Assembly (NCBI GenBank): GCA_016125215.1
Contig: WGMF01000006.1
Span: forward strand, 62,001-126,000
Source: Phycisphaera sp.
GTDB taxonomy: Bacteria > Planctomycetota > Phycisphaerae > Phycisphaerales > Phycisphaeraceae
DNA length: 64,000 bases
Direction of reading: 5' to 3'
Within the stretch, counting starts at the first letter, position 1, and each line of letters starts with the position of its first letter. Under the pieces are notes generated by a model that was not told the DNA's origin, did not search any database, and worked only from the letters and a program-made list of their open reading frames with translations. The position numbers and the translations under genes were made by a program. Below, piece after piece: positions 1,069-9,758 of the stretch.

Positions 1069-4000
1069 ATGCACGGCCGGTACACCCTGGCCGTCCTGCT
1101 GGCGGTCGTCGGCATCGCCGCGGGCGGATACTGGGGCTACACCCGCAAGAACCCGCTCTACGAGAGCACCGGGTTGATCCGGGTCGAGGCGGTCCTCCCC
1201 CGCGTGCTCTACTACACCGAGAAGAGCAACATCATGCCGATGTACGACCGGTTCCTCATGACGCAGATGCAGACCATCCGCACGCCGCGTCTGCTGGAAC
1301 TGGCGCTCAAGCAGCCGCCGTGGCGTTCGCTCGAGCGCCCGGATAACCCGGGGATGCAGGTGGTCTTCGGTCGTAGCATGAGCATCGAAAACCCCGCGGG
1401 CACGGACCTGATCGAGATCAAGTTCCTCGACGAGTCGGCCCGGGGCGCGGTCGCCGGCGTGCGCTCGGTGATCCAGGCTTATCTTGCCATGCAGCACGAG
1501 CAGGAGGCCAAGGAAGAATCGATGCGCATCCAGGTCCTCGTGGAACGCCGCGACGAACTGGCCACGCAACTGGCCGACATCCGCAAGAAGGTCGCGGACA
1601 TCGCAGACAAATACGGCACGGACTCGCTCGAAGAGGTCCACCAGCTCAAACTCGTCCGTCTGGACAAACTCGAAACGATGCTCCGTGAGACGCAGTGGAT
1701 GCTCGCGACGGTCGAATCGGAGGTCCACTCGAACAAGGACGTGGTGCCGGTGCGCCTGATGACGCCCGAGCAGATCGCCGAGGTCGACGAGACGATGGGC
1801 AAGTACCTCGACGAACGCCGGGCGATCGAGCAGGAGCTGCGCGAGCTGCGTATCCACCGTGTGCCGACGCACCCGACGGTCGTCGCCGCGCAGAAAAGAC
1901 TCGAAGCCTTCAACAAGAGCATCGAAGACTACGCGCAGCAATACCGCGCGTCGCAACCGGAGAACGCGGTCAAGCGGCCGTGGGAATCCGACGGCATCCC
2001 AACTGTGGTGACACTCGACCAGCTCAAGGCACGCGAGGCCCGGCTGCAGGACCTTTACAAGCCCGCGGAGGACGAAGTCACGACCATCGGCCGCGACAGC
2101 CTGGCGCTCCGCAACTTCCAGGCCGAGGCCAACGAGATCGAAAAGAAGCTCGAAGAGACCCGCACACGTATCGAGCAACTGGCGGTCGAAGCGACGGTCT
2201 CGGGGCGCGTGAGCGTGGTCAGCGATGGGCAGACGCCGCCGATGCCCTCGCAGGACCCGCGTAAGAAGAATGCGATCCAGGGCGCGGGACTTGGTGGGAT
2301 GCTCGGCCTGTCACTGGTGCTGGGGCTTTCGTTTATCGACCGACGCATCCGCCGTGTGGACGACGTGCGCAACCGCATGAGCACGCTGCCGATCCTGGGC
2401 ATCCTGCCGTCGCTGCCGGACAAGGACACCGACCCGCAGGAGGCGGCGGTCGCGGTGCACTGCATCCACCAGTTGCGGACACGGTTGCAGGTCACGCACG
2501 ACCACACGCGCAGGCAGGTTTTCTCCGTGACCAGCCCGATCAGCGGCGACGGCAAGACGAGCCTTGCGCTGGCGCTGGGCCTGTCGTTTGCCGAGTCGGG
2601 TGCCACGACGCTGCTCGTGGACTTCGACGTGGTCGGCGGGGGCCTGAGCCGTCGGCTCAACCCGATGATCCGTCCGATGCTCGGTCAGTTGCTTGTGAAG
2701 CAAGGCGTGCTGAGCAATCAGCAGCTCGAGGACGCGCTGCGTCTTTCGCGCGGGGCCGACCAGAGGCTCGGGCGGATGCTCGTCACCCTGGGCTACCTCA
2801 GCGATGCCCAGCTCGACGCGGTGTTGATGGAGCAGTCCCAGCCGACCGCCGGTTTGCTCGACGTTCTTTTTGGTTTGCCGCTGGGGACATCGATCCAGGA
2901 GACCACGATCAAGAACCTTCACGTGCTCCCGCGTGGACAGGCCGGTGCCCAACACGTGGGCCACTTCTCTCCTGGGTTTGTGCGTTCGCTGCTCGAACAG
3001 GCGCGTCAGAAGTTCGACGTGGTGCTCATCGACACCGGGCCGACACCGGGGAGCCTCGAAGCGTCGCTCGTGGCCCCGCAGGCCGATGCGGTGGTGATGA
3101 TCGTGGCCAAGGGCACGTCGGGTCCGCACGCGGAAAAAGCCGTCGCCCACCTGCAATCGCTCGGTGCGAATCTGAGCGGCGTGGTGTTCAATCGTGCGGG
3201 GGTCCGTGATGTTGAACTCTACAGCCAGACCTCGAGTCGATCGACCATGGTCAGCGGTCACAGCCGATTGCTGGTGACGACGCCGAGCCTGATGGACGAA
3301 GAGACGGGCTTTGAGGATTTCGATCCTGTGGCCAACGCCGTCGCACGCTCGACGGTCTATCACGGTCGCTTCGGTTCCAAAGCCAGTGCCAACGTCAACG
3401 GCTCACAAACCCCGCCGGCCAACGGTTCGACCCACACCAACGGGCACACCCACGCCAAGAGCAACGGTCACGCCAACGGAACCCCGACATCGGCCAACGG
3501 CGATGACCATGACACCCCGCGCACCGATGACGACTCGGGCTACGGGCTTGTGGTCCCGGACGACTTTGACGTATCGGCACAGGCTCAAACCGATTCGGTG
3601 ATGAAAACACAAACCGCCACAGAGTCGCCGGCATCGCCCGTGCAAAAAGGCACAACCCCCAGGGAACCCGAGCCGGATGATGAGGAGGACCACACCGTGA
3701 GCGACATCGTGTACCGCGCGATCCACAAGACCGACACCAAGCCGACTACGGACGACCGGGCCGGTCAAACCAGCCAACCCGGCACGCTGGATGCGGGCGA
3801 AGAGCACGAAGAGCGTGAACAACCCGAGGAGTCGTTCGGGATGTTCCGTGATGTGGTATCCGACATCGAGGGCCTGGCGATGGCGCTGCCTGACGACAAG
3901 CTGGCCGATGCCCCCGCGCCCAGCCCGGCGGTCCCTGAATCCGCGCCGAAGTCCGCGGCCCCGGTGCGTGTGGTGCAGTGCCACTCATGCGGAAAGAAGC

Positions 4001-4209
4001 TCGCGGTCAAGGGCGACGTGAAGCACAAGGCCGGCCGTTGCCCGCAGTGCAAAGCCTCGATCAACCTCACGGCGGCGGCACCCGGCGCCAAAGCGCTGGT
4101 GGCGGTCACGTGCGTGAATTGCGACGGGAAATACGCCGCCAAGCGCAGGGACGACGGCTCGGTCCGGGCGCGGTGCCCGCACTGCTCGCACAGGCACGAT
4201 TCCCGCTGA
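1069..4209 (+). CDS. Wzz-type polysaccharide copolymerase fused to BY-kinase, with MshEN-like insert and zinc ribbons
   Basis: Inner-membrane polysaccharide chain-length regulator and tyrosine autokinase (Wzc/CapAB type). Numbering is from ATG 1069; translation may start at 952. A membrane helix is at about 5-24. A long periplasmic coiled-coil region (about 140-385) and a second helix (about 408-424) follow. The cytoplasmic P-loop kinase has Walker A SPISGDGKTS (489-498), Walker A' TLLVDFDVVGGG (513-524) and Walker B FDVVLIDTGPTP (649-660). Between A' and B lies an unusual insert (537-589) matching the MshEN cyclic-di-GMP fold. The tail is an Asn/Thr/His-rich linker (from about 774), an acidic stretch and two four-cysteine zinc ribbons (C971, C974, C991, C994; C1015, C1018, C1036, C1039). 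The Tyr cluster typical of Wzc tails is absent. Followed closely by the initiating sugar transferase, so it belongs to the exopolysaccharide operon. Confidence 0.85.
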   Translation: MHGRYTLAVLLAVVGIAAGGYWGYTRKNPLYESTGLIRVEAVLPRVLYYTEKSNIMPMYDRFLMTQMQTIRTPRLLELALKQPPWRSLERPDNPGMQVVFGRSMSIENPAGTDLIEIKFLDESARGAVAGVRSVIQAYLAMQHEQEAKEESMRIQVLVERRDELATQLADIRKKVADIADKYGTDSLEEVHQLKLVRLDKLETMLRETQWMLATVESEVHSNKDVVPVRLMTPEQIAEVDETMGKYLDERRAIEQELRELRIHRVPTHPTVVAAQKRLEAFNKSIEDYAQQYRASQPENAVKRPWESDGIPTVVTLDQLKAREARLQDLYKPAEDEVTTIGRDSLALRNFQAEANEIEKKLEETRTRIEQLAVEATVSGRVSVVSDGQTPPMPSQDPRKKNAIQGAGLGGMLGLSLVLGLSFIDRRIRRVDDVRNRMSTLPILGILPSLPDKDTDPQEAAVAVHCIHQLRTRLQVTHDHTRRQVFSVTSPISGDGKTSLALALGLSFAESGATTLLVDFDVVGGGLSRRLNPMIRPMLGQLLVKQGVLSNQQLEDALRLSRGADQRLGRMLVTLGYLSDAQLDAVLMEQSQPTAGLLDVLFGLPLGTSIQETTIKNLHVLPRGQAGAQHVGHFSPGFVRSLLEQARQKFDVVLIDTGPTPGSLEASLVAPQADAVVMIVAKGTSGPHAEKAVAHLQSLGANLSGVVFNRAGVRDVELYSQTSSRSTMVSGHSRLLVTTPSLMDEETGFEDFDPVANAVARSTVYHGRFGSKASANVNGSQTPPANGSTHTNGHTHAKSNGHANGTPTSANGDDHDTPRTDDDSGYGLVVPDDFDVSAQAQTDSVMKTQTATESPASPVQKGTTPREPEPDDEEDHTVSDIVYRAIHKTDTKPTTDDRAGQTSQPGTLDAGEEHEEREQPEESFGMFRDVVSDIEGLAMALPDDKLADAPAPSPAVPESAPKSAAPVRVVQCHSCGKKLAVKGDVKHKAGRCPQCKASINLTAAAPGAKALVAVTCVNCDGKYAAKRRDDGSVRARCPHCSHRHDSR
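2677..2835 (+). other. MshEN-like (type II secretion GspE N-terminal) domain inside the kinase
   Basis: Residues 537-589 of the kinase form two tandem 24-residue motifs separated by exactly 5 residues, the 24-5-24 layout of MshEN. The second motif (566-589) keeps every consensus position: R566, L567, G568, L571, V572, G575, Y576/L577, L582, L586 and Q589. The first motif (537-560) keeps LG, LV, G, VL and the two Leu, but has Met for the initial Arg and Ser for the final Gln. MshEN domains in known proteins bind cyclic di-GMP. Binding here is inferred. Confidence 0.75.
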
Positions 4210-4240
4210 CTGACACTTGATTAGCTACGGCAAAAAGACC

Positions 4241-5704
4241 ATGTCCATCGCACGCATCATCCCGCAGACCACGCCGACGGTAAACGTCACCATCCCCTCC
4301 CCCACGCTCTGGGGGCTGGACTTTGCGCGCCTGCACGACCACATGTGGGCCAGCCTGGGCGTGCAGGTCGTTCGCCTGGGCGCCGCCCGACCGATCGAGC
4401 CCAAGGCGCAGCGGTACCTGCTGCTCGAGCCCAACGACCTGACGCTCTTCAAAGTCAAGGAAGCCGACAACAACCACGACGCCCTCAAGCCCACGTTCCG
4501 CGTGGTCCGTGTCCGCGACGCGCGCAAGCACGGCTACCGCGAGATGGTGATGGCCGACAGCGACGACAACTTCATCGGTTTCAAGCGTGAATACAAGAGG
4601 CCGATACACGACCTGCGGGCGATCCTGACCAACGACCGCTGCGCCGCGCAGCTCTGGTCGATCTCCAACGACGCCGTGGGCATCTGGAGGCAGCTCCGCC
4701 GACTCATCCCGCGTCCGAGGCGCAGCGCGTGCAGCGTGGCGGGCAGGCAGTACTCGCTTGCGAACCACGGCGAGTGCATGCAGATGGCGCACGATCTTGT
4801 GCGTTTCTGGAAATCGCCCGAACAGGGCATCGGCTCGGTGAGGAAGATCGGCAGGGGCGTGTGGGGTGATTCCCGCGCGGATGTGGAATTCGGCTCGACG
4901 GTCGTCGGGCCGGTCTGGATCGGCAGCGGACGGAGGATCGCCGCGGGGCAGAGCGTCGCGGGCCCGGTCATCCTGTGGGACGCACCCAGCCATCGGCCCG
5001 ACCCTCAGCCGTTCCAATGGGATCGCACGACCGACACGACGCGCTTCGACTTCGAGGCCCCCACACCCAAGATCAAGGCCAAAACGATCAAGGGCAAACG
5101 CGCGTTCGATATCGTGGTCAGCCTCATCGCGCTGGCGGTCACGCTGCCGTTCTACCCGGTCATCATGTTCCTGATCTGGCTCGAAGACGGTCGGCCGTTC
5201 TTTTTCAGCCACGAACGTGAGACCGTCGGGGGCAGGACGTTCGGCTGCGTAAAGTTCCGCTCGATGCGGCGCGACGCCGAGCAGATCAAGGCGCGTCTGC
5301 AGCGGGTCAACAAAGCCGACGGCCCGCAGTTCTACATGGAAGACGACCCCCGCCTCACGCGCATCGGCCGGCTCATCCGCAAGTGCAATATCGACGAGTT
5401 GCCGCAGTTCTTCAACGTGCTGCGTGGCGACATGTCGCTGGTGGGTCCGCGTCCAAGCCCCTACAAAGAGAACCAGTTCTGCCCGGCGTGGCGCGAGGCG
5501 AGGTTGAGCGTCCGCCCGGGGATCGCGGGGCTTTGGCAGGTGATGCGCACCCGTGCGGAGGGCTTGGACTTCCAGGAATGGGTGCGGTACGACGTGGAAT
5601 ACATCGAACACATGAGCTGGCGGCAGGACCTGTGGATCATCTACAGCACGGCGCTACTCATCCTTTTGCACAAGAGGCCAAAGAGCCATGACTCGCACGG
5701 TTGA
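4241..5704 (+). CDS. Undecaprenyl-phosphate sugar phosphotransferase with N-terminal beta-helix-like region
   Basis: Predicted to transfer the first sugar-1-phosphate to the lipid carrier in exopolysaccharide assembly. The C-terminal 220 residues are a bacterial sugar transferase domain. It has the entry motif KGKRAFDIVVSLIAL followed by a membrane segment, then KFRSMRRDAE, a DDPRLTRIGRLIRK-type line, DELPQFFNVLRGDMSLVGPRP and PGIAGLWQV. The N-terminal 270 residues are not the usual multi-helix WbaP domain. They resemble the nucleotidyltransferase and beta-helix parts of the first gene in this window (GVWGDSRADVEFGSTVVGPV). ATG 4241 is chosen over the TTG at 4217. The end overlaps the next gene by 17 bases, so translation is probably coupled. 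Confidence 0.85.
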   Translation: MSIARIIPQTTPTVNVTIPSPTLWGLDFARLHDHMWASLGVQVVRLGAARPIEPKAQRYLLLEPNDLTLFKVKEADNNHDALKPTFRVVRVRDARKHGYREMVMADSDDNFIGFKREYKRPIHDLRAILTNDRCAAQLWSISNDAVGIWRQLRRLIPRPRRSACSVAGRQYSLANHGECMQMAHDLVRFWKSPEQGIGSVRKIGRGVWGDSRADVEFGSTVVGPVWIGSGRRIAAGQSVAGPVILWDAPSHRPDPQPFQWDRTTDTTRFDFEAPTPKIKAKTIKGKRAFDIVVSLIALAVTLPFYPVIMFLIWLEDGRPFFFSHERETVGGRTFGCVKFRSMRRDAEQIKARLQRVNKADGPQFYMEDDPRLTRIGRLIRKCNIDELPQFFNVLRGDMSLVGPRPSPYKENQFCPAWREARLSVRPGIAGLWQVMRTRAEGLDFQEWVRYDVEYIEHMSWRQDLWIIYSTALLILLHKRPKSHDSHG

Positions 5705-7403
5705 ACTTCCGGAGCAGGGGTACGAAGCGATGTCCGCTGGAACAGGGGACTTGATCTCGTTGCCACGCGATACCCAACCGCAACCCGACGCGGTTGCGCA
5801 GGGGTCGTGGCGTTACCGGTTGGGCTGGTGCCTGGCCGGGGTGCTTGTGCTCGGCGCGTGGCTGCCCTCGCTCTGGGCGATGTATCGGGACTGGGGCTAC
5901 CCGATCTGGCCCTCGCCGGCCTTCGAGGACGCGGTGCGATTCGGCAGGTTATCACTGCATTACAACACGCTGCCGTTTCTGGCGGTGCTGTGCGTGTGGG
6001 TGGCATGGGCGCGGTACCGGGACGTGGGCGTGCCCGTGATGAGGCGGCCATGGAGCACCACCGGGGGCTACGCGCTGCTGCTCGGTGCGCTGTTGTTGCA
6101 GGCGTTATCGCTCCGGGCCGTGGTGCTCAGCGTATCGGGCATCGCGTTGGTCGGGACCGTCACCGGCCTGCTCCTGGTGATCGGGGGCGGTCGGTTGCTC
6201 TGGGCCTACCGTTGGCCCGTGATCTCGCTGTTCATCCTGGTGCCCCGGCCGCACGTCTGGGCCAATCCGTTTGTCGATGGCTTCAACTTCTGGATGTGCG
6301 CCAAGGCGTCGCGGATCGTCGAAGCCTTTACCGGCTGGGTGACGATCCAGGACGACCGATGGGTGTTGATCTCCACATCGGGTCACTCGCAAGGCATCGT
6401 GAAGTGGTCGGTGAATGAATTGTCAGCTGGGCACGAATGGTTGATCCTCCTAGCGTCACTGGCGTGGCTGGTGGCGATCAGTTCCCGGGCGACGCGCCTT
6501 CGCAAGTGGCTGACGGTGCCGGTGGTGGTGGCGGTGGTGCTGGGGGGGAGTTTCCTGAGAATGGTGGCCCTGATCGTGCTGCGTGGGCAGGGGTGGGCCA
6601 ACGACGCGCAGAGCGTGGGCACGGCGGTCGCGGTGACGGTGGTCGGGATCGTGACTGTGGCGCTCTTGAACAGGCGGGCCGGCGGGGTCCGTCGTACCGG
6701 GCACGTCTATTGCGATGTGGACCACCGGTCTCACGTACCGATGCCCGCGCTGGCGATGCTGGGTATTGCGGCCATCTCCGGGCCTTTTGTTTTGGCCAAC
6801 GCCAACGAACGCTCGACGACGAACTTCACACGCACCGCCCTTCCGACCACCCTGGAAGTCTGGGGCCAGACACTCTCTTCACACGACATCACACTCGACG
6901 AACGGGCGCACCAACTCATCCGCAGCGACGACCTGCTCATGCGGGTTTATGACAGCGAACTCACGGACGCGACCGGCACCGTCTTCCTTGCCCACAGCAA
7001 CAGCTTCCGCAACGGCGTCCACTCGCCGGAGGCCTGCCTCGAACACGCGATCCTCGAACGCGACGAGATCGTGCTCGATGTCCCCGGGGTCGGTCGTGTG
7101 CCCATGAAGGTGCTCATCACGGGCAAGAGCCAGTATGAATGGCTGCACCTGTATGGCTACTACACGCGCTGGGGCTTTACCGACAGCTACCCGTGGCAAC
7201 AAGTCTCCGCCCTGACACGGGGGGTGTGCCTTGGCGACAGCGAGGGCGGACAGGTGCGGGTGAGCATCCCCGTCAGAAACCTGAACATCGAGACCGCCAG
7301 GTCACGTGCATCGGAGCTTGCGGTCGCTGTGGTCTCGTCGCTCAACCGTTCGCTGCACGAGGGCACGACCTACCCGCCAAACCCGGAACCCGACAGGCCT
7401 TGA
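5688..7403 (+). CDS. Degenerate exosortase fused to an EpsI-like domain
   Basis: The N-terminal two thirds is a polytopic membrane protein that lines up with the intact exosortase encoded next (both have a VPxP loop about 80-110 residues before the active-site helix). At the catalytic site it reads VNELSAGHEW where the neighbour reads VAEACNGLRM, so the Cys becomes Ser246. The Arg is kept (R291, in GSFLRM). The position of the catalytic His appears to be lost. The C-terminal 190 residues, after a last helix, form an EpsI (DUF3485) domain with HSPEACL. A transpeptidase function is therefore unlikely; a scaffold or substrate-handling role is inferred. It lies between the sugar transferase and the exosortase with overlapping or near-zero spacing. 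Confidence 0.75.
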   Translation: MTRTVELPEQGYEAMSAGTGDLISLPRDTQPQPDAVAQGSWRYRLGWCLAGVLVLGAWLPSLWAMYRDWGYPIWPSPAFEDAVRFGRLSLHYNTLPFLAVLCVWVAWARYRDVGVPVMRRPWSTTGGYALLLGALLLQALSLRAVVLSVSGIALVGTVTGLLLVIGGGRLLWAYRWPVISLFILVPRPHVWANPFVDGFNFWMCAKASRIVEAFTGWVTIQDDRWVLISTSGHSQGIVKWSVNELSAGHEWLILLASLAWLVAISSRATRLRKWLTVPVVVAVVLGGSFLRMVALIVLRGQGWANDAQSVGTAVAVTVVGIVTVALLNRRAGGVRRTGHVYCDVDHRSHVPMPALAMLGIAAISGPFVLANANERSTTNFTRTALPTTLEVWGQTLSSHDITLDERAHQLIRSDDLLMRVYDSELTDATGTVFLAHSNSFRNGVHSPEACLEHAILERDEIVLDVPGVGRVPMKVLITGKSQYEWLHLYGYYTRWGFTDSYPWQQVSALTRGVCLGDSEGGQVRVSIPVRNLNIETARSRASELAVAVVSSLNRSLHEGTTYPPNPEPDRP

Positions 7404-7404
7404 C

Positions 7405-8292
7405 ATGCCTACGCATCCCCTGACAAAGCGGTCCGTGATCGTGTGGACGCTCCTGAGCGCCGCGGCGCTGGTTGCGTCCGCCGATGCCTGGGTGGATGTG
7501 TGGCGTCTGGCGGGCGAAAACGCGGACTCGGGCCACGTCTATCTCGCGCCGATCATTGCGGCCTGGCTCCTGTGGGTCAGGCGACACCGGCTCAAGGAAC
7601 TTGACGGCGAGGGCCGATGGGTGGCTTTACCGATTGTCGTCTTCGCCGCGGCGATGAGCCTCGTGGCCTATCACGCTTCGGTGCAGTCGCTGTGGCACCT
7701 CTCGTCGGTTCTGCTGCTGGTGTCCTGCGCGGTGGCGGTGATGGGGGTCAAGGCGTTGACGCGGTTTGCCCCGGTGTGGCTGGTGATGTGTTTTGTCGTC
7801 CCGACGCCCGGCATCGTGCGCACGCACGTCTCGCTGCCCTTGCAGACCGCCACGGCTCAGGCGACGCAGGCGGTGCTCGGGGCGGTGGGCCTGGACGTGG
7901 TCCGCAGCGGCAACCTGCTCTCTTTCAACGGTCAGGCCGTCGCCGTGGCCGAGGCGTGCAACGGCCTGCGGATGGTCACGACACTGGTCCTCGTGGTGCT
8001 GGGCTTTGTATTCAGCAGACCGATGCGACCGGGCGCAAGGGCAGCGATGGTCCTGCTCAGCCCGGCCCTGGCGATCGTGTTCAACGTGGCCCGCCTGGCC
8101 CCGCTGGTCCTGTTGTATGGCTGGGGTTACAGAGAGTTGGCCTCAACGGTCCACGACATCAGCGGCTACCTCATCCCGATCTTCGCGTTTGCGTTTCTCT
8201 GGCTGGGGGTGTGGGGGTTTGATCGAGTGCTGAGCAAACGAACGAACTGGACCGGCGCTCGACACTCAGGCCTGGCAGGGGCGGCTCCATGA
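7405..8292 (+). CDS. Exosortase (cysteine transpeptidase-like membrane protein)
   Basis: A 295-residue polytopic protein with the complete exosortase/archaeosortase signature: EACNGLR with Cys185, NVAR with Arg230 and HDISG with His250. About eight membrane helices are visible. Exosortases recognise C-terminal PEP-CTERM-type signals and process secreted proteins destined for exopolysaccharide matrices. ATG 7405 begins one base after the stop of the preceding gene. The longer frame from 7306 would overlap that gene by 98 bases and is rejected. The stop overlaps the start of epsI. Genes in this operon supply the likely polysaccharide and a candidate substrate (9057-9758). The exact subfamily was not assigned. 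Confidence 0.9.
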   Translation: MPTHPLTKRSVIVWTLLSAAALVASADAWVDVWRLAGENADSGHVYLAPIIAAWLLWVRRHRLKELDGEGRWVALPIVVFAAAMSLVAYHASVQSLWHLSSVLLLVSCAVAVMGVKALTRFAPVWLVMCFVVPTPGIVRTHVSLPLQTATAQATQAVLGAVGLDVVRSGNLLSFNGQAVAVAEACNGLRMVTTLVLVVLGFVFSRPMRPGARAAMVLLSPALAIVFNVARLAPLVLLYGWGYRELASTVHDISGYLIPIFAFAFLWLGVWGFDRVLSKRTNWTGARHSGLAGAAP

Positions 8293-8975
8293 AAATACAT
8301 CTCCCGCTCCAACATCTCGACCGCGCTTCGCCGTGGGTCTGCCTCGCGGTCCTGGTCGGCCTTGGCGCGGTCACGCTCAACCGACCCGGCCAGCTCGCCG
8401 CGGCGGCGTACCACAAGCGGGTCCAACTCTCCGCGCAGCACCTCCCGACGCAGCTTGAAGGCTGGCGGTGTGTCGAGCTGCCGATCGCGGCGGAGGAACT
8501 GGACATCCTTAAACCCAATGTGATGGTCAGACGGGCCTTTGTCGACAGCGTCACCGGCCGGGCCTTCGAGCTGACCGTGGTGCAATGCCCCGACGCACGG
8601 CACATCGAGGGCCACTCGCCGTTGATCTGCTTCATCGCCAACGGGTGGACTCAGAGGCAGACACAAACCGTCCGCGCCCAAGCCGACTTACCCGCTTACA
8701 CCCGCTACCGTTTCGACCGCACGTTCGAGGGCCAGTACGAATCACTCGTGGTCCTGAACTTCGTCCTCCTGCCCGACGGCACCACGTCGTCCGACGCACG
8801 CGGCGCAAACGCCGTGGCCAGCAGCCTCCACGACCGCTGGCTGGGGGCGGCCCAGTACATGCTCGTCTTCGACGACCAGCTCTCAGAAGACGTGCAGCAA
8901 CGGGCGCTGGCACAGGTCTGGGAGGCCTCGCAAGACTTCGTCCACACCGTGGCCTCGGGCAAGCGGGGCCAGTGA
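8289..8975 (+). CDS. epsI: Exosortase-associated EpsI-like protein (DUF3485)
   Basis: A 228-residue protein with one N-terminal membrane anchor (ASPWVCLAVLVGLGAVTL) and an exported DUF3485 domain. EpsI proteins accompany or are fused to exosortases in exopolysaccharide loci; their biochemical role is not established. The HSPLICFIANGW line is the counterpart of the HSPExCLxxxGW motif. It starts in an ATGA overlap with the exosortase stop. The same domain occurs at the C-terminus of the degenerate exosortase upstream, so this operon holds two EpsI copies. Confidence 0.8.
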   Translation: MKIHLPLQHLDRASPWVCLAVLVGLGAVTLNRPGQLAAAAYHKRVQLSAQHLPTQLEGWRCVELPIAAEELDILKPNVMVRRAFVDSVTGRAFELTVVQCPDARHIEGHSPLICFIANGWTQRQTQTVRAQADLPAYTRYRFDRTFEGQYESLVVLNFVLLPDGTTSSDARGANAVASSLHDRWLGAAQYMLVFDDQLSEDVQQRALAQVWEASQDFVHTVASGKRGQ

Positions 8976-9056
8976 ACAACTAACACTTTGTTTGATGTCG
9001 GGTTGCGACCAACCCATTTTCCATTGTCCACACTTTTTCTCAAAGGGAGTCTCGAA

Positions 9057-9758
9057 ATGTCCGACCACACTCATGTGTCGTTCTCCAGCCGCCGCGTGTG
9101 TTCGCTTGTGGCCGCGGCCGTGGTGGCGCTGCTCGTGCAAACCACCGCACAGGCGATCACCTACGACTTCAAGCTCGCGCCCGGCTCGACGCCCATCGAG
9201 ATGTACGACCCCGGTCTGGTCATCGCCTCCGAGGGCATTACCATGACCGCCTCGGCCTACCCACGCTTCCTCTACCAGGACGAGAACGGCCTGGGCGTCA
9301 CGGGCGGATTCATCGCCCCCGGCGACGACCCCGAGATCGACAACGACCCCTTCGGCTTCTCCGAGGGCATCAACTTCACCTTCTCCGAAAAAATCCGACT
9401 CGAGAGCATCACCTTCACACAGATCGGCAACGACCTCTCGGGCGACTGGGCACAGGTCAAGGTCGGCGCCGCCACGATCTACATGAACCAGCTGCCCAAC
9501 GGCAACGCCACCGACACCGGTGTCTACACCCTCGACCTCAACCCCCTGCCCTTCGACGGCCGCGAGGGCACCGTCGTCAACATCAGCGCCTTCAATTGGG
9601 TGCCCGGCAGTGATTTCCAGGTCTCCGCGATCACCGTCACCAAGGCCCCGCACATGCCGCTGCCCTCGCCCCTCGGGGCGGGCCTCGCGCTGCTCTCGTG
9701 CCTCGGCGGCGTCCACATGATGCGCAGGCCCAACCGCCTGACGCCGACCCTCGACTGA
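9057..9758 (+). CDS. Secreted protein with PEP-CTERM-like sorting signal, probable exosortase substrate
   Basis: A 233-residue protein with an N-terminal signal peptide (RRVCSLVAAAVVALLVQTTAQA) and a beta-rich middle. The C-terminus has the tripartite exosortase signal: a PLPSP motif, a hydrophobic stretch (LGAGLALLSCLGGVHMM) and a basic end (RRPNR). ATG 9057 is chosen because AAAGGGAG ends 8 bases upstream; the frame opens earlier at 8988 without a ribosome site. It follows epsI by 81 bases and is closed by a strong terminator. It is probably the dedicated substrate of the adjacent exosortase, although this is inferred from position and signal only. Confidence 0.75.
   Translation: MSDHTHVSFSSRRVCSLVAAAVVALLVQTTAQAITYDFKLAPGSTPIEMYDPGLVIASEGITMTASAYPRFLYQDENGLGVTGGFIAPGDDPEIDNDPFGFSEGINFTFSEKIRLESITFTQIGNDLSGDWAQVKVGAATIYMNQLPNGNATDTGVYTLDLNPLPFDGREGTVVNISAFNWVPGSDFQVSAITVTKAPHMPLPSPLGAGLALLSCLGGVHMMRRPNRLTPTLD

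Follow-up and report, generated by a model that had tools for sequence, protein, structure and literature searches.

An MshEN-type domain inside the ATPase core of a Wzc-like exopolysaccharide co-polymerase from Phycisphaera sp., with a possible link to c-di-GMP

We analyzed a stretch of 64,000 nucleotides of Phycisphaera sp. DNA (contig WGMF01000006.1, positions 62,001 to 126,000; hereafter, the window) and found that a gene for a Wzc-like polysaccharide co-polymerase/ATPase (1069..4209, an open reading frame [ORF] of 1046 aa with no internal stop) hosts an MshEN_N domain within its P-loop ATPase (2677..2835, residues 537-589). Both lie on the + strand, as do all features below whose coordinates are written in this form. 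The identity of the domain, its insertion point, its recurrence in relatives, the retention of two glycines and of the motif II Gln in 31 of 31 clear inserts, and the exopolysaccharide context of the gene were all computed. The best explanation of these results as a whole, which we hold with a confidence just above even, is that the insert is a switch of the exopolysaccharide co-polymerase ATPase responding to cyclic di-GMP (c-di-GMP).

An initial annotation, made from the letters alone, had placed a 53-residue MshEN insert of 24-5-24 geometry at this position, and each of these points was borne out. The insert reads MLGQLLVKQGVLSNQQLEDALRLS, then RGADQ, then RLGRMLVTLGYLSDAQLDAVLMEQ (residues 537-560, 561-565, and 566-589), and it is located, as proposed, between Walker A' (residues 515-520) and Walker B (Asp655) of the host. 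The NCBIfam model NF053729, named cyclic di-GMP-binding domain-containing protein, MshE-related, matched residues 538-589 of the whole protein with 49.7 bits and the isolated insert with 55.5 bits, over a curated cut-off of 38, and phmmer against the PDB gave MshE (5htl) as the top match (E 2.7e-9). In addition, a custom profile of 51 positions was derived from the MshEN domains of 34 further proteins of the class, every one of which matches T2SSE (secretion/pilus ATPases). With this profile, the focal insert scored 51.7 bits, while the best of 1660 shuffled stretches reached 7.6 bits.

Structure prediction also favoured an MshEN-like four-helix bundle over a plain kinase loop. The AlphaFold2 model of residues 430-773, computed with 49 relatives (mean predicted local distance difference test [pLDDT] 88), shows the insert as four helices (109-115, 121-134, 138-144, and 150-160 in model numbering), with a mean pLDDT of 95-98 in the ten-residue blocks from 111 to 160; these predicted helices join the helix after Walker A' to the helix before the next strand. 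Modelled alone with 25 relatives, the insert gave the same four helices at lower confidence (pLDDT 79-88 in the core). The first Foldseek match of this insert-alone model was 5htl, that is MshE with c-di-GMP, at a root mean square deviation (rmsd) of 0.8 Å, with an E value of 0.024 that is weak, the model being short. Further matches comprised, among others, the c-di-GMP-bound PilF GSPII-B and also folded domains that do not bind, such as PilF GSPII-A. MshE of V. cholerae and PilF GSPII-B of T. thermophilus have the same 53-residue, 24-5-24 four-helix bundle, and chain 5htl_B shares 45% identity with the insert over the 53 columns of the fold match, the motif II contacts being kept in the insert. 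The architectures differ, as the domain of MshE and PilF is N-terminal to a secretion/pilus ATPase and is followed by MshEN_C, whereas the focal insert sits inside a P-loop ATPase, lacks MshEN_C, and has a motif I without Arg1 and Gln24.

The same architecture, whose presence in other Phycisphaerae the initial annotation had left to be checked, was indeed found there. A search with the host protein matched 58 of 61 genomes (its own included), many over part of the protein only. Among 30 loci taken one per genome (L007-L036), 15 carry a clear MshEN insert, 12 a weak insert of the same length, 2 a short loop, and 1 another insert; these loci come from best matches alone, which favours carriers of the insert. 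A second set, obtained by a contig search keyed on the subfamily Walker B peptide and sharing several contigs with the first, gave among the best 80 of 120 relatives 26 clear MshEN inserts, 13 weak ones, 36 plain loops, and 5 other inserts. Most of these 80 relatives bear Phycisphaer- or Planctomycetota names. Altogether, 51 distinct inserts of 60-70 aa stand at the site, 31 of them clear and 20 degenerate, and strain ZRK34 has a clear copy in its complete chromosome (CP050848.1, L038). Most short loops measure 8-17 aa, the longest 30, compared with 65-67 aa for clear MshEN stretches, a difference of about 55 residues at a single point. Of the 50 rows in alignment A3, 35 have an insert and 29 match NF053729 (E <=0.001).

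A phylum-wide search scoring about 9 candidates per genome found insert-spanning matches in at least 6 of 294 genomes, that of G014 being degenerate; the 6 listed genomes are all among the 15 sampled from the window's own family or order. On the tree, which has 32 open branches among its 110 inner ones and an uncalled root, the state "clear MshEN" requires at least 9 changes and "plain" at least 4. The position of one short-loop clade (L034 and its relatives), nested within rows that bear inserts, suggests a loss of the insert. On plasmids, tblastn with residues 470-722 gave 36 records, and among the best 25 of these no internal MshEN was seen in the 18 rows covering at least 80% of the query, whose DNA was in each case about 45-60 residues too short for the insert. 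Searching plasmids with the insert alone returned 5 records, annotated as a glycosyltransferase and three type II secretion/type IV pilus ATPases, with one lacking annotation. Two Hydrogenedentota homologues (L077 and L078) carry weak inserts at the same site, a possible case of inter-phylum transfer. Moreover, five loci (L124, L125 [=L093], L126 [=L087], L129, and L146) have inserts of 94-134 aa in the same loop with no MshEN signal, and the Walker A'-B loop looks like a hot spot of domain insertion in planctomycetes.

Contact-residue roles were taken from PMC5013675, and inserts scoring at least 30 bits were counted as clear, which gave the 31 distinct clear inserts and the 20 weak or degenerate ones of the same length class. 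In the focal protein, motif II (2764..2835, 24 aa) keeps R566, L567, G568, L582, L586, and Q589 and, together with G575, all seven consensus positions that the initial annotation had named. All 31 clear inserts have the two contact glycines and the Gln of motif II, and the remaining 50 of the 53 positions all vary among them; likewise, in the 26-row alignment A4 the two glycines and this Gln are the sole invariant columns within the insert. The motif II Gln is present in 31/31 clear versus 10/20 weak inserts (Fisher p 1.4e-5, uncorrected for relatedness) and is not among the 51 positions of the profile by which inserts were selected, while selection by score favours the glycines. In the weak inserts, the contact Gly of motif I is kept in 3/20 and that of motif II in 2/20. 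At the motif II Arg position, the clear inserts have Arg (15), Pro (7), Lys (6), Leu (2), or Gln (1), and at the motif I Arg position Arg (16), Lys (12), Gln (2), or Met (1). The secretion/pilus-ATPase reference domains show the reverse pattern for the two glutamines, with the motif I Gln in 29/32 and the motif II Gln in 9/32; these counts cover the 32 of 34 domains that were read, 12 of which have a 7-residue spacer and an approximate register. According to the same source, the isolated MshEN_N of MshE (residues 1-62) binds c-di-GMP with a dissociation constant of 0.35 uM (PMC5013675). We consider c-di-GMP binding likely for the inserts of the group.

Several observations weigh against a c-di-GMP switch, above all in the focal protein. 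Its motif I (2677..2748, 24 aa) keeps L, G, L, and L and lacks two of the six key residues, Arg1 being replaced by Met537 and Gln24 by Ser560, changes that the initial annotation did not mention; the single Met found at the Arg position among the 31 clear inserts is that of the focal protein. The motif I Gln is gone from 30 of the 31 clear inserts (Ala 21, Ser 7, Gln 1, Gly 1, Val 1), and all the other contacts are kept in 18 of them, a count which tolerates Lys for Arg and large hydrophobics for Leu and which does not include the focal copy. In MshE, Arg9 and Gln32 count as important for the binding of c-di-GMP (PMC5013675), and in PilF, binding by GSPII-A became measurable only once three Arg/Gln positions were restored, such motif I replacements contributing to its loss of binding (PMC12002112). 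In favour of binding, on the other hand, changes of Arg9, Asp12, or Gln32 in MshE shifted affinity by at most about fivefold (PMC5013675). Furthermore, the insert is kept even where its site is no longer intact, as in the 20 degenerate copies among the 51. The Pfam MshEN model PF05157 did not match the protein at any E value up to 1, and DUF4388 (20.5 bits, cut-off 25) was the top Pfam row over the insert, so of the profile support expected for the domain NF053729 stood and Pfam did not. This is because PF05157 describes the part that follows, as seen in the pilus-type ATPase L001, which has the 53-residue motif at residues 38-88 and PF05157 at 92-175; that part is absent from the insert, which is, judged by its sequence, MshEN_N alone. 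As to the fold, VIA-align placed 5htl at Z 10.1, with 66 aligned positions at rmsd 6.3, while fumarases and aspartases scored Z 6-7, and helical bundles at a Z under about 13 may reflect a common arrangement; the fold match on its own is therefore modest evidence, and more weight falls on the match in sequence. Finally, the genome has 8 GGDEF and 2 EAL matches, whose presence speaks for the switch, but none of the 8 GGDEF matches is on the window's contig (C33); the 2 EAL matches are likewise elsewhere. With two of the six key positions of its motif I altered, the focal insert has by our estimate about even chances of binding c-di-GMP, and the predicted binding is less certain for this copy than for relatives such as that of ZRK34.

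The alternative that survives best, doubtful in our view yet of real weight, is that the focal insert is a non-binder of c-di-GMP. The loss of Arg1 and Gln24 from its motif I speaks for this, as does the persistence of weak inserts that have mostly lost the contact glycines, and the 94-134 aa inserts without MshEN signal at the same site elsewhere indicate that the loop tolerates domains. XpsE and PilF GSPII-A also provide precedents of domains that are folded yet do not bind (PMC5013675, PMC12002112). Against it stand the three never-varying positions of the clear inserts, which are precisely c-di-GMP contacts, the motif II Gln that separates clear from degenerate inserts, and the fact that the focal copy is unlike the degenerate ones. 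A second alternative, which we consider very unlikely, is that the insert binds another cyclic dinucleotide or a c-di-GMP-loaded partner, the loss of the motif I Gln and Arg marking an altered half-site. The replacement of this Gln by Ala or Ser in 28/31 clear inserts, compared with its presence in 29/32 reference domains, would fit such a change, and MshE is reported to bind cyclic GMP-AMP weakly too (PMC5013675), but the glycines that read the guanine O6/N7 edge through their amides are kept in 31/31. A kinase loop resembling MshEN by chance, or an assembly chimera, has in its favour the lack of a Pfam MshEN match and is rejected as next to impossible, the shuffles staying at or below 7.6 bits against 51.7 for the insert and the identical insertion point recurring in many genomes, including the complete chromosome of ZRK34.

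The initial annotation had also called the host a polysaccharide tyrosine kinase, and this part is doubtful. Canonical bacterial tyrosine kinases (BY-kinases) have the Walker A' consensus DxDxR. The focal protein possesses Walker A (GDGKT, residues 493-497, 2545..2559; G495 and K496 invariant in the 50-row alignment A3), Walker A' (LLVDFD with its DxD as DFD, residues 515-520, 2611..2628; D518 and D520 invariant in A3), and Walker B (VVLIDTGP, Asp655, 3019..3042), the last with DTGP instead of the DxPP of canonical BY-kinases, and Val522, two residues past Walker A', stands at the place of their Arg. We compared 101 subfamily rows with 12 rows from the same phylum taken as canonical BY-kinases (L134-L145), which are split from them by a 100/99 branch and had been picked after inspection of their loops and tails. 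Within the 80 residues after the core, the subfamily has a median of 1 Tyr and a maximum of 4 (n=101), whereas the canonical rows have 2-11 with a median of 5.5 (n=12), ranges that overlap slightly; the focal protein has 5 Tyr in its tail of 335 aa, without a Tyr cluster. The EX2RX2R motif is found in 0/30 MshEN rows (focal included), 0/20 degenerate, 0/43 plain, and 1/8 other rows, versus 10/12 canonical ones. Directly after DxDx, Arg occurs in just 1 of the 101 subfamily rows (2 not read); in the 12 canonical rows this residue is Arg in 9 and Lys in 1, with 2 not read. D(T/S)GP occurs in 100/101 subfamily rows, partly owing to the Walker B-keyed selection, and DxPP in 11/12 canonical rows.

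Because the Tyr cluster, EX2RX2R, and the Walker A' Arg are lost from nearly all the subfamily, tyrosine autophosphorylation is doubtful in it, and the host should rather be labelled a Wzc-like co-polymerase ATPase. The insert-free relatives with plain loops likewise have no Tyr cluster; its loss is thus not tied to the insert and probably preceded it or arose independently. Octamer assembly of Wzc is controlled by its Tyr tail and the phosphorylation of this tail (PMC8285477), and in BceF an Arg just past Walker A' is among the residues near ADP (PMC8394532). Ring control in this subfamily probably differs. At the place of the BY-kinase Tyr cluster, a loose (F/Y)GPLA-x-AVAS tail is seen in 25/30 MshEN, 17/20 degenerate, 18/43 plain, 0/8 other, and 0/12 canonical rows; the focal version is FDPVANAVARS (3319..3351), and this tail may be a peptide docking to the neighbouring subunit.

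The host is a Wzc-like co-polymerase, with a Wzz-type membrane part followed by a P-loop ATPase of MinD/BY-kinase fold. Its scores are below cut-offs, with 74.9 bits for TIGR01007 (cut-off 108.05) and 45 bits for TIGR03007, and stronger matches in relatives cover host residues 2 to about 720-840. The Wzz-type membrane/periplasmic part comprises residues 1-430 (1069..2358; sub-cut-off TIGR03007 match at 105-453), with hydrophobic segments at about residues 5-24 and 403-423, as seen by eye in the sequence, and the P-loop domain related to BY-kinases corresponds to residues ~440-720 by the sub-cut-off TIGR01007 match. In the predicted model, this domain aligns with CapAB, Wzc, Etk, and BceF at VIA Z of about 25-29 and with MinD/ParA at about 18 or less. 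The C-terminus (3967..4206) is Cys-rich, with two CxxC...CxxC sets resembling a zinc ribbon (Pfam DZR E 0.016, below cut-off), and a stretch resembling it at 43% identity lies in an ORF of 78 aa in the genome of the nearest relative (G022:C434).

Compared with Wzc, CapAB, and BceF, the focal protein has the same combination of a Wzz-type part and a P-loop domain of the same fold, and it keeps Walker A, the Walker A' aspartates, and Walker B; it differs by having no Tyr cluster and no EX2RX2R, a replaced Walker A' Arg, DTGP for DxPP, and the additional domain in the A'-B loop. MshEN domains were already known on exopolysaccharide proteins. NfrB, the c-di-GMP-controlled exopolysaccharide glycosyltransferase of E. 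coli, carries one (PMC8669469), and Wang 2016 cites Methylobacillus exopolysaccharide biosynthesis among MshEN proteins (PMC5013675). The NfrB profile matches the insert at 31.9 bits (whole-protein cut-off 1170); MshEN on exopolysaccharide machinery is thus common to both, the one being a glycosyltransferase and the focal host a co-polymerase ATPase. The chain length determinant tyrosine kinase EpsG (TIGR03029) shares a BY-kinase-type domain with the focal host, and the isolated insert is matched by positions 5-56 of its 274-position profile (18.1 bits, E 0.0012), from which EpsG probably carries MshEN at its N-terminus, whereas the domain of the focal protein is internal. By score, the focal protein is not an EpsG (61.5 bits against TIGR03029, cut-off 313.8). 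An MshEN inside the P-loop core of a co-polymerase was not found among the listed titles and abstract beginnings of open-licence papers, a case which the supplementary architecture tables of Wang 2016 might list. Of the earlier claim of an undescribed fusion, the internal position is thus the part for which this search gave no precedent, while the coupling of c-di-GMP to exopolysaccharide proteins by way of MshEN has precedents in NfrB and Methylobacillus.

The host gene belongs to an exosortase-linked exopolysaccharide cluster. It is followed by genes for a polyprenyl-phosphate sugar transferase (4217..5704, PF02397 202.8 bits), an exosortase-family protein (5688..7403, PF09721 41 bits), an exosortase (7306..8292; from 7351, PF09721 149.3 bits and TIGR02602 108.1, cut-off 105.55), and an EpsI-like DUF3485 protein (8289..8975, PF11984 40.5 bits), and upstream lie glycosyltransferases, one of WecG/TagA type. 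In a scan of ten proteins from three related loci, the sugar transferase comes directly after the host gene in L038 and L062 as well, and L051 has an exosortase upstream. The two exosortase-family genes of the region 5688-9758 are in tandem, the first ending in a part with weak similarity to EpsI (21.5 bits against a cut-off of 42.8), and the product of 8988-9758 shows by eye a PEP-CTERM-like tail, with no family match in library scans. Proteins of about 1400 aa rich in tetratricopeptide repeats are encoded downstream in two related loci (L038:8394-12572, after the sugar transferase, and L051:8339-12643); that of L051 comes after an ORF of 477 aa, and in the window an exosortase succeeds the sugar transferase instead. 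The genome has 6 NF053729 matches, 5 of them over the cut-off, the focal one included, and three low-molecular-weight phosphatase matches, all on contigs other than the window's.

In the c-di-GMP switch that we favour, the MshEN_N four-helix bundle, which is inserted in the loop joining the helix after Walker A' to the helix before Walker B, would in the group most likely bind c-di-GMP. Anchored at both ends beside Walker A', it would alter either nucleotide binding by the ATPase or assembly of the ring (octamer), and polymer length and export would thereby track the c-di-GMP level. Ligand binding, the effect on the ATPase, and the physiological output are what we infer here. Wzc ties exopolysaccharide chain length and export to tyrosine phosphorylation. 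A broader proposal, which we put forward as rather unlikely, is that Phycisphaerae possess a Wzc-like exopolysaccharide motor that, lacking the Tyr cluster and EX2RX2R, has abandoned the phosphotyrosine cycle, and in which ring assembly or the nucleotide cycle would be under direct c-di-GMP control through a sensor in the ATP-binding core.

Synthases such as NfrB are known targets of c-di-GMP, and a sensor in the ATPase core of a co-polymerase would, if true, place a direct link elsewhere in the machinery. Moreover, the 53-residue cassette exists naturally in intact, degenerate, and insert-free versions, providing a ready-made evolutionary experiment. These sequence patterns suggest that, in this Phycisphaera and in many related Planctomycetes, c-di-GMP could act directly on the sugar-export machine.

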